From Pseudomonadota bacterium (lineage in GTDB: Bacteria; Pseudomonadota; Gammaproteobacteria; Acidiferrobacterales; Acidiferrobacteraceae): a stretch of DNA of 5,469 bases. The first letter of the stretch is position 1. Every line of letters begins with the position of its first letter. The stretch lies in NCBI GenBank assembly GCA_021795255.1, contig JAJYPQ010000303.1, positions 1 to 5,469 of the forward strand, given 5' to 3'. The translations under genes were made by a program, and so were the position numbers. Shown here one piece after another: positions 658-5,168 of the stretch. The notes under the pieces are model-generated. The model was given only the letters and a program-made list of their open reading frames with translations, made no database searches and was not told where the DNA came from.

Positions 658-664
658 TATGTCC

Positions 665-1102
665 ATGTCTATCTACCGCAATCCATTTGTCCGTCGCGCA
701 GCCGTCGCGCTGGTTCTCTCGCTTCCGTTCGGCGCGGCTTTTGCCCACGACAGCTACTATCAGCAGTTTGGCCAGAAGCCTGGGATTAAAGCGGTGGTAA
801 ACCGCTTTATCGGCTACGTCCTTGCCGACCATCGGATCTCCCACTACTTTGCTAGCACCGATATCCCGAACCTCAAATCGGCCCTTACGGACCAGTTTTG
901 TCAGGAAGAGGGAGGCCCTTGTCAGTATACGGGTCCCAGCATGTCGGATGTCCATAGAGGTCTAGGCGTCAATGAGGCCGCTTTCAATGCCTTGGTAGCA
1001 GACCTTATTAAGGGGATGGACCGCCAGCACATCCCGCTCGCTGCCCAAAACAACTTGTTGTCGAAGCTCGCCCCAATGGAGTCGCAGATCGTGACCCGCT
1101 AA
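665..1102 (+). CDS. Periplasmic group 1 truncated haemoglobin (TrHb1) with signal peptide
   Basis: This is a 145-residue protein counted from the ATG at 665; the ATG at 659 would add two residues but sits only 1 base from the Shine-Dalgarno. Residues 1-27 form a Sec signal peptide: basic RNPFVRR, a hydrophobic core, and AAFA before His28. The mature part is a complete TrHb1 domain of about 115 residues. It has the YQQFGQKPGI opening, VLAD of the B helix at 52-55, the CD1 Phe at 62, the GGPCQYTG block at 83-90, and the haem-ligating proximal His at 97 (DVHRGLGV). TrHb1 proteins bind haem and small ligands such as O2 or NO; here that would happen outside the cytoplasm. Compared with M. tuberculosis HbN, recalled from memory and aligned without gaps, the distal Tyr B10 is Ile49 and Gln E11 is Leu74. 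The only two cysteines, Cys79 and Cys86, flank the GGP turn and could form a disulfide. It is likely cotranscribed with the DUF3034 gene and followed by a strong terminator. Confidence 0.92.
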   Translation: MSIYRNPFVRRAAVALVLSLPFGAAFAHDSYYQQFGQKPGIKAVVNRFIGYVLADHRISHYFASTDIPNLKSALTDQFCQEEGGPCQYTGPSMSDVHRGLGVNEAAFNALVADLIKGMDRQHIPLAAQNNLLSKLAPMESQIVTR

Positions 1103-1130: not shown

Positions 1131-1157
1131 AGCCGCCCGCAACGGGCGGCTTTTTTT
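1131..1157 (+). terminator. Rho-independent terminator after the truncated haemoglobin gene
   Basis: A perfect 9-bp stem, AGCCGCCCG (1131-1139) pairing with CGGGCGGCT (1143-1151), has a 3-base loop CAA and runs straight into seven T residues (1151-1157). It lies 28 bases after the haemoglobin stop and closes the left-hand plus-strand operon. There is no A-run on its left side, so it reads as one-directional. Confidence 0.95.
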
Positions 1158-1176: not shown

Positions 1177-1223
1177 GGAGGTCACAGGGAGTGGGTATTA
1201 ACTTCCTTTATCACAACCCCTGA
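1177..1223 (+). other. Possible mini-ORF with strong Shine-Dalgarno, between terminator and dif
   Basis: GGAGGTCA at 1177-1184 is close to a full anti-16S match. It is followed after 8 bases by a GTG at 1191 that opens ten codons (Met-GINFLYHNP) and stops at TGA 1221-1223, four bases before the dif core. No promoter is evident between the upstream terminator and this site. It may be a chance match, or the 5' stub of a gene whose remainder was lost by recombination at dif. Confidence 0.15.
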
Positions 1224-1226
1224 TTA

Positions 1227-1254
1227 ATTTGACATAATATACATTATGCGAACT
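1227..1254 (-). other. dif: dif site: XerC/XerD chromosome dimer resolution site
   Basis: Read on the minus strand from 1254 down, the 28 bases are AGTTCGCATAA (XerC-binding arm, 1254-1244), TGTATA (central region, 1243-1238) and TTATGTCAAAT (XerD-binding arm, 1237-1227). Against E. coli dif as I recall it, 25 of 28 positions agree. The differences are two in the outer XerC arm and one T to C in the XerD arm at plus-strand base 1231. Against the degenerate gamma/betaproteobacterial consensus, whose outer XerC arm allows A/G, any base, T, then G/T, only the 1231 change remains. XerC and XerD with FtsK recombine two dif copies here to turn chromosome dimers into monomers at cell division. There is normally one dif per chromosome, in the terminus. 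The site is intergenic, between convergent gene sets. It contains TTGACA (1229-1234), which looks like a -35 box but belongs to the XerD arm. Confidence 0.92.
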
Positions 1255-1410: not shown

Positions 1411-2217
1411 TTATCTCGTGCGAAGGAGCCACTCCTGAATGCGAAACCAAACCTGCGCGGGCTGTTCAAGTTCCGGAGAATGGCCTGCATTTTCGATCAC
1501 CTGACGCGTCGCTGTTGAGGCGTACTGGAGTATTGACCACTTGTCGGTAGCGCTATGCGTACGGTCCTGCACGCCCCATATGACTAAAGTGCGGTACTGC
1601 CTTTCGCCAAAAAGGGGTTCCGGTCCCCCAAACCAGCACTGGGTCAAAGATGCCAAACAAAAACAACCACCATCTTCAAGTCTTCTTCTGCCGATAGCGC
1701 TGAAGGCACGGGCTTGGTCCGGATCCTTTACTGCGGCGCGATACCATTTGTCGGTCACACCTCGCGCGCATGACGCCATGATCAATTGGCCAACCACTGG
1801 AAGCCGGAGAAACGCTCGATCGATCCTTCGAGCCCACGCGCATTCATCCCGCCAACTAGGGGCCTGAATGAGGCAGAGGTCTCGCACCAAATCAGGTCGC
1901 ATTTCAGTGAGCCGCAGTCCACTATAAGCAGTAACGCAAGGGGCCACGAGGCAAGCATCGGAGACACCGAGAGTGGTCAATACATCGCTCAAAACAGCGG
2001 ATTGCGCCTCCAAAGAAAAGGAGTAACTCGACTTCGGATAGGAGCAGCCAAATCCAGGCATCTCAACTACCAATGCGCGATACCCTGAGAGCTGCACTTG
2101 TCCCAGCAAAACATCATAGTGCTCAATAACGTTCGGGGCGTCACAGAGGAACACGACGGTGTTAGGTCCATCGCCATGTATCCGAACACGAACCCATGAA
2201 TGCTTAAGATCCAACAT
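1411..2217 (-). CDS. Atypical alpha/beta-hydrolase-fold protein with Cys at the nucleophile position
   Basis: Counted from the ATG at 2217 this is a 268-residue protein, the usual size for a single-domain alpha/beta hydrolase. The frame stays open upstream to an ATG at 2424, but residues encoded there are Arg/Cys-rich and unlike the fold. ATG 2313 is a second possible start, and none of the three has a good Shine-Dalgarno. Fold landmarks are VRIHGDGPNTVVFL (strand region, 10-24), the YRALVVEMPGFGCSYP block (46-61), the nucleophile elbow LVAPCVTAYSG (90-100), the acid strand TLVIWGVQD (210-218, Asp218) and the catalytic His246 in ENAGHSPELEQP. The usual G-x-S-x-G is A-P-C-V-T, so Cys94 replaces Ser, and the usual HG after the first strand is Cys25-Asp26. 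Ten cysteines are unusual for a cytoplasmic enzyme of this size. Substrate is unknown. It may be a thiol-nucleophile hydrolase or acyltransferase, or a non-catalytic relative. No signal peptide is evident from 2217. Confidence 0.72.
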   Translation of the reverse strand: MLDLKHSWVRVRIHGDGPNTVVFLCDAPNVIEHYDVLLGQVQLSGYRALVVEMPGFGCSYPKSSYSFSLEAQSAVLSDVLTTLGVSDACLVAPCVTAYSGLRLTEMRPDLVRDLCLIQAPSWRDECAWARRIDRAFLRLPVVGQLIMASCARGVTDKWYRAAVKDPDQARAFSAIGRRRLEDGGCFCLASLTQCWFGGPEPLFGERQYRTLVIWGVQDRTHSATDKWSILQYASTATRQVIENAGHSPELEQPAQVWFRIQEWLLRTR

Positions 2218-2242
2218 CTTGATACCCGGCCGGCTAAAGATT

Positions 2243-2271
2243 GCCCGACGCGATATCGCCCTCCTTCGGGC
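2243..2271. repeat. Inverted repeat upstream of the hydrolase start
   Basis: GCCCGA (2243-2248) and TCGGGC (2266-2271) are perfect inverted arms 17 bases apart, enclosing a second palindrome GCGATATCGC (2250-2259). A third palindrome, CCGGCCGG, is at 2226-2233. They lie just upstream of the ATG at 2217 in the presumed leader, and a minus-strand GAAGGAGG is inside the outer arms without a start codon at working distance. They could be an operator or leader structure, or simply GC-rich coincidence. Confidence 0.3.
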
Positions 2272-2355
2272 TAGGCAGCAGGTCCAATAGTCAATTGTCC
2301 GTGCCCTGATCATCACATTCCGCCGTGTTACCAGACTCCCGAACGCGCAGCGCTG

Positions 2356-2361
2356 ATTATA
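2356..2361 (-). promoter_or_regulatory. Candidate -10 box for the hydrolase
   Basis: The minus strand reads a perfect TATAAT at 2361-2356. The region 16-18 bases upstream has no TTGACA-like -35. A transcript from here would begin near 2349, leaving a short leader to ATG 2313 or about 130 bases to ATG 2217. It would exclude the ATG at 2424. Evidence is a single hexamer. Confidence 0.25.
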
Positions 2362-2659
2362 AGGCCGGCTGAGCAGTTTATCGGTCCCACCACGACTGAA
2401 AGTCCTATGCCAACACGCATCCACGTATGCTCATAGGTCAATCAGTTTGGGCTGCGATGCGCAAAGCCCGCGATCAGTTTTTAGCTGCCAGGCTCGGCCG
2501 TGCAACGCCGACACTAGACCCAGAATATTTTGTCGTCGCGTCTGTCGTGATGTAGGGCCGCAGGTCGAAAGCGTCCGGCTACTGCCTACATGGGTCGCTG
2601 TATTTTCGGGAAAGCGGCGGGGAGCTTAGGCTACGCATGGGGCAAGCCTTAAGAGGCCG

Positions 2660-2872
2660 CTAGTGGTCACCTCTATCCCCTCCTCTATCCCCACCCCTAT
2701 ACTCGCCTTGGTCGCCCCCCCTACCTCTGTCTCCGCAACCCCAGCAAGGGTGGCCGTAGTACCCCCCATCTCCTCTGCGCGGGACATAAAAGCATCCGGA
2801 CAGGAAGCTCATCCCCATGATGATCAGTAAAAACCGCAGTACCTGTTTCTTCGTTTTCAGTGGGTTCAGCAT
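2660..2872 (-). CDS. Small Gly/Arg/Asp-rich predicted lipoprotein
   Basis: A 70-residue protein. The N-terminus has a basic stretch (K6, K8, K9, R13), a hydrophobic core FLLIIMGMSF, and a lipobox LSGC with Cys27 as the predicted lipidation site, so it should be exported and anchored in a membrane. Residue 28 is Phe, not Asp, which would favour the outer membrane by the +2 rule. The mature part is only 44 residues, low in complexity, with a HPCWGC (CxxC) turn at 41-46 and a 4-residue repeat near the end (RGGD/RGGD/RGDH). The DNA repeat unit there is 12 bases. The ATG at 2872 is chosen because the charged signal-peptide N-region needs it, although its Shine-Dalgarno is weak (only a GAG 4-6 bases upstream). 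It lies 83 bases after the membrane-protein gene on the same strand. I do not recognise a family. Such short Gly-rich lipoproteins are common but poorly characterised. Confidence 0.68.
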   Translation of the reverse strand: MLNPLKTKKQVLRFLLIIMGMSFLSGCFYVPRRGDGGYYGHPCWGCGDRGRGGDQGEYRGGDRGGDRGDH

Positions 2873-4226: not shown

Positions 4227-5168
4227 ATGTACGAAAGTCGTTCATCGCGTTACACAAGGGACCAGGATTTTGCTTTTGCCGTTATGCGCATTATTTTTGG
4301 CGCTATTTGGGCAGTAAATACCGCTCTTGAAGCCAATGCCCCCTATGTGAATCATTTTTTGGCGTCCATCGTACAGCGCGTGGCGGGCCAGCCCGATGTC
4401 GTTCGGGCCTATTTGCATATTGTGATCCACGGGATAGAGCTGTTAGGTCCCCGGCATGTGGCGATGGCGACCGTGGTCGTGGATGGTCTTCTCGCGATAT
4501 CACTTTTGACGGGCGTGGGACTGCGGCCTTGGGCGCGATTTGGCGTCATTTATAGCCTGTTTTTGTGGTCAACGGTGGGGGGGTTCGGGGGACCTTATGT
4601 GGCCGGTGCGACCGATCCGGGTACCGCTATTGTGTATGCACTGACGTTTTTTACCATCCTCTCCGTTCCGTCAGAACAGCGGCTGACCATAGGAGGTCAT
4701 CCGGCACGGGTCGTGGAGACCCGGGAAATCGAGGTGGTGCGGATCCTCTTCGGCCTCTTGTGGGCCTTTGATGCCTTCTGGAAATGGCAGCCGGCGTTTT
4801 TAGAGCATGGCCTTTCTTATCTGCGCGCCGCCCAAGTCGGCCAACCAGTCTGGATTGTGGTCTACATCGGCCTCTTTATCCGTATCCTCGGCATTGTCGG
4901 ACCCGTGGCCTTCGGCCTCTTTGCGGCGGTTGTGGAAACGGCACTGGCGATCAGCCTTTTGGCGAAGCGTGGCGAGAAGTGGATGCTGCCGATCGGGTTT
5001 TTCTATTCGTTCGGGGTGTGGACGACCGCCGAGGGCTGGGGCGGCCCCTATAGCCTCGGAAGCACCGGAAACCGGGGGGACATGCTGGGCACGGCGGATA
5101 TGTACATGATCGTCTACTTATACCTGATGGTCGCCTATCTTTTTAACCGTCGCCGCAAGATATCATAA
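4227..5168 (+). CDS. DoxX/DoxD-like integral membrane protein, tandem-duplicated
   Basis: A 313-residue protein, about twice the length of ordinary DoxX proteins (roughly 130-150). Two homologous halves are visible. Half 1 begins RIIFGAIWAVNTALE (21-35) and ends with WSTVGGFGGPY (114-124). Half 2 begins RILFGLLWAFDAFWK (172-186) and ends with WTTAEGWGGPY (265-275). Both landmarks are exactly 151 residues apart. Each half has about four hydrophobic helices, giving about eight, joined by a polar linker (about 147-168), with a basic RRRK tail. The R-I-x-F-G-x-x-W start and the G(F/W)GGPY turn recall the DoxX/DoxD superfamily. DoxD is the small subunit of the archaeal thiosulfate:quinone oxidoreductase, and other members have redox or quinone-linked roles. 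No DoxA partner gene is in the window, so thiosulfate oxidation is only a possibility. The start at 4227 has AAGGAG upstream. It is divergent from yaiI and convergent with tatD. Confidence 0.85.
   Translation: MYESRSSRYTRDQDFAFAVMRIIFGAIWAVNTALEANAPYVNHFLASIVQRVAGQPDVVRAYLHIVIHGIELLGPRHVAMATVVVDGLLAISLLTGVGLRPWARFGVIYSLFLWSTVGGFGGPYVAGATDPGTAIVYALTFFTILSVPSEQRLTIGGHPARVVETREIEVVRILFGLLWAFDAFWKWQPAFLEHGLSYLRAAQVGQPVWIVVYIGLFIRILGIVGPVAFGLFAAVVETALAISLLAKRGEKWMLPIGFFYSFGVWTTAEGWGGPYSLGSTGNRGDMLGTADMYMIVYLYLMVAYLFNRRRKIS

Follow-up and report, generated by a model that had tools for sequence, protein, structure and literature searches.

Chromosomal dif sites are usually described as self-sufficient 28-mers in variable surroundings that are switched on by FtsK. 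Filamentous phages that use dif can carry paired, inverted Xer-like sites, and a 2021 report by Karaboja is said to have found that XerD acts on SMC at the terminus of Bacillus subtilis. In plasmid Xer recombination, the accessory sequences of cer span ~180 bp and bind ArgR and PepA, according to the available part of PMC5357621. The window analysed here, which is the whole 5469-base stretch of DNA, holds a dif site with a short conserved neighbour. Taken as a whole, the locus is very probably the chromosomal dif of an Acidiferrobacteraceae-like bacterium, with a variable base at position 24 and a 25-bp neighbour that is kept on account of dif. No element beside dif is described in the accessible parts of the dif literature among the matches listed, which does not prove novelty.

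The dif site and its genomic setting

The minus strand of 1227–1254 reads AGTTCGCATAATGTATATTATGTCAAAT and has one mismatch to RNTKCGCATAATGTATATTATGTTAAAT, which we take to be the dif consensus, at dif position 24 (window position 1231, base C). It is organized as two 11-bp arms around a 6-bp centre and is the only site in the whole window with at most three mismatches to the consensus; none of 200 dinucleotide-preserving shuffles holds such a match. The consensus matches gammaproteobacterial dif sequences printed in the available part of PMC2731167. The site is non-coding and lies in the gap between open reading frames (ORFs) that end at 1102 (plus strand) and 1411 (minus strand), which belong to convergent globin and hydrolase genes. 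The preliminary description, which had proposed an intergenic 28-base minus-strand dif site with a single consensus difference at 1231 in the XerD arm, is borne out. Positions 1227–1254 (minus strand) are a genuine chromosomal dif site. The features of the site and its neighbouring genes are as follows.

1227–1254, minus strand: dif site, 28 bp; one consensus mismatch, 0/200 shuffles, orthologous dif next to the globin and DUF3034 genes of G001 and G002
1244–1254, minus strand: XerC arm (dif positions 1–11), from position in the 28-mer
1238–1243, minus strand: central hexamer TGTATA (dif positions 12–17), from position in the 28-mer
1227–1237, minus strand: XerD arm (dif positions 18–28) with variable base 24 at 1231, from position in the 28-mer
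659–1102, plus strand: globin-like gene (Bac_globin) pointing at dif; PF01152, E 3.4e-11; same place in G001 and G002
1131–1151, plus strand: terminator-like hairpin after the globin gene; 1 found versus 0.5 expected in shuffles
1411–2424, minus strand: alpha/beta hydrolase gene pointing at dif; PF12697, E 5.4e-8
2660–2872, minus strand: 70-aa lipoprotein-like ORF with a Gly/Arg/Asp-rich tail; no Pfam match

Relatives were compared in groupings built around genomes G002 and G007, termed here “family” and “order”, and are mostly draft genomes. In G001 and G002, which are the nearest kin of the window, dif is placed likewise, next to globin and DUF3034 genes, and the DUF3034, globin, YaiI, 313-aa membrane protein and TatD genes of the window flank the single dif found in each. 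Profile matches to the globin come from six loci, with 82–90% identity in four MAG loci and 53–55% in two Acidocella loci. Among 120 matches listed of 280, the 313-aa membrane protein has 83% and 73% identity to Acidiferrobacter sp., 69% to Acidiferrobacterales and 59% to Acidiferrobacteraceae; the description of the host as Acidiferrobacteraceae-like follows from these matches. GC contents at the dif locus are 55–56% in the window, G001 and G002 (loci L114 and L116) versus 57–65% in other family loci.

The hydrolase gene sits between dif and the genes that flank dif in G001 and G002, is missing next to dif in all 18 relative loci compared, and looks acquired. A search for homologues in the 18 relatives at E 1e-20, run without a positive control, gave no match. 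With this gene intervening, dif is ~1.4 kb from the lipoprotein-like ORF in the window versus ~0.4 kb in G001 and G002; 9 of the 18 relative loci compared have relatives of that ORF on the XerC side. The longest contig on record with the hydrolase (300-aa form) measures 65,575 bases and that with the membrane protein (4227–5168) 26,891 bases, and because these records differ another assembly may contain the hydrolase as well.

Within the family, dif (at most three mismatches) is found in 17 of 18 genomes, as a single copy in 16 and as two copies in G012, with none in G018. In G007, a closed relative (one contig, 3,398,398 bp) and the one chromosome tested in this way, dif is at 1,782,788 and the cumulative GC-skew maximum, sought within 400 kb, is at 1,753,120, which is 30 kb or 0.9% of the chromosome from dif. 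Skew in twenty 20-kb samples from G007 is positive in 9 of 11 before dif and negative in 8 of 9 after it. Copies of GGGNAGGG, which we take to be the KOPS motif, point at dif from both sides across 17 relative loci and the window: 48 of 54 on the XerC side (6 point away) and 38 of 41 on the XerD side (3 point away). The second G012 copy is left out of these counts and the window contributes zero to them, with no KOPS found within it. All 18 family genomes have XerD above cut-off and a second XerC-like gene, which exceeds the strict XerC family cut-off in one of them, and 17 have FtsK-gamma. Copy number, G007 skew and KOPS convergence support the view that in relatives this dif stands at the replication terminus, so the terminus placement in the preliminary description is supported for the site in relatives. 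By analogy with the known XerCD-FtsK system, XerC and XerD in the organism of the window would bind the two dif arms, and FtsK, steered by KOPS, would reach the closing septum, where strand exchange by XerC/XerD would split chromosome dimers.

Two genomes carry more than one dif. The two dif-plus-element copies of G012 (L120 and L121) are on different contigs, and the flank of the second copy resembles that of G016; the second copy may therefore represent contamination or a second strain. G389 has two copies (L137 and L149) on different contigs with near-identical flanks, perhaps as an assembly duplicate.

The base at 1231, which had been called usually constant, is at the most variable position of the XerD arm: position 24 carries A, T and C in 18, 16 and 13, respectively, of the 47 order genomes with dif (57 searched; the window and the second copies in G012 and G389 left out). 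Each other XerD-arm base is identical in at least 45 of the 47, as are XerC-arm positions 5, 6 and 8–11 in all 47 and every base of the central hexamer in at least 46, with a bias toward constancy from a search pattern that left position 24 open and allowed three mismatches elsewhere. Close relatives also differ at position 24 (G001 A versus G002 T; G007 T versus G016 A). The suggestion that the change is lineage-specific was fair because PMC2731167, in its available part, calls dif positions 23–24 variable and position 24 a possible species marker; the same excerpt predicts contact between position 24 and XerD Q221. The variation across the 47 genomes, between close relatives and in that excerpt leads us to reject an unusual XerD-arm change, and the C at position 24 is an ordinary, freely varying species-level base without special importance. 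XerD residues that track base 24 were also sought; the score of the best column was reached in 4 of 200 label shuffles and is not relied on, and the link is set aside because very similar XerD proteins accompany different bases (G007/G016, G001/G002).

A conserved element on the XerD side of dif

When family loci are aligned at dif, most have a second shared block 15 nt past the XerD arm, which was first noticed by eye and is absent from the preliminary description.

1187–1211, minus strand: conserved dif-side element, 25 bp, ATAAAGGAAGTTAATACCCACTCCC; exact fit to ATAANNNNAGTTAATRCYNACTY, 85% identity over 12 loci
1212–1226, minus strand: 15-bp spacer, constant in length and variable in sequence; 39% mean pairwise identity over 12 loci

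The pattern ATAANNNNAGTTAATRCYNACTY, derived from these same family loci, occurs with at most one mismatch in 12 copies, spread over 11 of the 18 family genomes, all of these copies beside dif and none elsewhere. The window copy (1187–1211 plus two further bases) fits it exactly. The element is separated from dif by 15 nt in 12 of 13 copies, including the window, and by 16 nt in one. Averaged over all pairs of 12 loci (11 genomes plus the window), dif is 96% identical, the element 85% (lowest pair 76%) and the spacer 39%, with 28–36% in flanking blocks over the next 60 bp. The remaining 37 dif loci, which comprise 31 outside the family (30 genomes) plus G001, G002, G014, G017, G019 and G020, have at least six differences from the element within 120 nt. 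A search of 369 class genomes for a dif half with GTTAATG 18–30 nt after it gave six matches, one of them a family member; in 114 class genomes, the motif with at most one mismatch gave four matches (G007 and three others) versus six for a backward control.

Six of the 17 family genomes with dif lack the element or have it in decayed form, including the nearest relatives of the window, G001 and G002, and the element is therefore dispensable. In a tree of the 313-aa protein from 16 loci, the window is sister to the pair G001 and G002 (99/99), and a separate group (83/80) contains the 11 remaining genomes with the element; G014 is weakly supported in the window group (83/68). The simplest history is that the element is ancestral and was lost or decayed in G001, G002 and perhaps G014. 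The element tracks dif and not the neighbouring genes: the gene usually found on the XerD side is present in G014, G017 and G019, which lack the element, and the window has the element with the globin gene in place of that gene. This distribution indicates an element kept because of dif rather than because of the genes around it.

Three other properties of the element were considered. Its dyad symmetry is modest, being reached by 8 of 500 permutations. A coding sequence was rejected from a by-eye reading, in which conservation lacks codon periodicity. A conserved hairpin was also rejected: in three element-bearing loci that were folded, a 7-bp stem forms in G007 and not in the window or G008.

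Competing readings of the element and the site

The element is most likely an accessory site of dif. If bound by an accessory factor, or by XerC/XerD in inverted orientation, it could help or restrain recombination at dif or mark the terminus. A more specific version, which we propose tentatively, is a composite dif in Acidiferrobacteraceae-like bacteria, in which selection would keep an inverted, recombination-poor Xer-like element 15 bp past the XerD arm; XerC or a dedicated accessory protein would bind this element, which would control dimer resolution or terminus handling. A second short element at fixed distance from dif in one lineage hints at an extra layer of control, and the window, in which the element is kept, can be compared naturally with its sisters G001 and G002, in which it was lost.

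A related reading, which is possible although rather doubtful, is that the element is a second, inverted and degenerate Xer site in the arrangement C-D, spacer, D'-C', to which XerC and, weakly, XerD would bind. Such a site would load or hold the recombinase, or hinder unwanted synapsis, and would itself not be recombined.

1190–1218, plus strand: possible inverted Xer-like site overlapping the element; XerC-like 1190–1200, 7-nt centre 1201–1207, XerD-like 1208–1218

On the opposite strand the element reads AGTNGGYATTA, 7 nt, TTAT. When scored over the 12 loci with arm matrices built from 30 dif sites outside the family, its score is reached by 4 of 4000 joint column permutations, and with matrices from the same 12 loci by 0 of 500 for the pair, 2 of 500 for the XerC arm and 17 of 500 for the XerD arm. 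Single copies, however, score -3.2 to 6.2 bits versus 29.9–34.8 for dif, and the conserved part taken alone as a half-site is weak (200 of 4000). Element arm positions 5 and 10 are changed, although both are invariant in 47 dif sites and position 5 is important for XerC binding in the available part of PMC2731167. The outer XerD-like half falls in the unconserved spacer and the centre is 7 nt rather than 6 nt, so the element lacks the near-consensus arms and 6-bp centre of a functional Xer core; the idea itself also arose after the sequence was seen. The resemblance to an inverted Xer site is weak and suggestive only.

It is unlikely that the element serves a neighbouring transcript as promoter, operator or small-RNA signal and owes its place beside dif to shared ancestry only. 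The XerD side of dif is a long non-coding stretch in most relatives, and a promoter-like match at 1210–1238 (plus strand) overlaps the element and dif, with one found versus 0.4 expected, which does not exceed chance. Against this, both genes that flank the gap in the window point inward, so neither needs a promoter there, and the usual XerD-side gene, which occurs without the element in G014, G017 and G019, has by eye its own GATAAT-like box ~35 nt ahead of its start. Rfam gave no match, the hairpin that is strong in G007 is unconserved, and the distance from element to dif is fixed though the spacer sequence varies. We consider it about equally improbable that the element is a relic of the attachment region with which a phage or integrative element formerly exploited XerCD at dif. 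The inverted site pairs that dif-using filamentous phages can carry would fit such an origin. About a quarter of proteobacterial dif sites adjoin mobility genes in the available part of PMC2731167. An 85% identity across lineages with saturated flanks argues otherwise, as do the viral data: the motif was found in 14 viral stretches, several of them mutual copies, and none of these contigs has a good dif-like site within 200 nt of it (the best has five mismatches). The preliminary description had placed the window in a zone where XerCD-using phages and islands integrate, and no sign of this appears: 1150–1350 has no phage match, the eight ORFs scanned have no phage-type domain, and the window has no second dif that could bound an inserted element. 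It is highly improbable that the site belongs to a plasmid, phage or island as a dif-like copy and is not the terminus dif. A hydrolase gene beside dif that was not found in 18 relatives (in the search without positive control) could be taken to favour it; the other neighbours of the site, however, lie around the one dif found in each of G001 and G002, and apart from the missing phage matches there is a single weak plasmid match, which is restricted to the YaiI gene.

Comparison with known systems

The arrangement of two close Xer-like sites in opposite orientation resembles that of CTXphi-type filamentous phages. It differs from theirs in that only one of the two sites here is a complete dif, the other scoring close to background, and in that the window has no phage genes. 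The action of XerD on SMC at the terminus of Bacillus subtilis (available part of PMC12322038) shows that a Xer protein there can do more than recombine DNA, although that bacterium belongs to a distant phylum. Plasmid sites of the cer/psi type (PMC5357621, in the part available) are similar in combining a recombination core with a nearby sequence thought to bind a helper; here, in contrast, the nearby sequence is on a chromosome and has a putative binder, and instead of an accessory sequence of ~180 bp there is a 25-bp block, with identity of 36% and 28% over the next 60 bp. If the composite-dif reading is true, the element would be a chromosomal counterpart of plasmid accessory sequences. 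A further likeness is to the classical proteobacterial dif/XerCD-FtsK system, as covered in the available parts of PMC2731167 and PMC3025954, with which the locus shares a non-coding 28-bp site, a conserved XerD arm and a variable position 24 and, in relatives, a position near the skew maximum, KOPS convergence and XerC-like, XerD and FtsK-gamma genes. What sets it apart from that system is the conserved 25-bp element that lies on the XerD side of dif at a fixed spacing.
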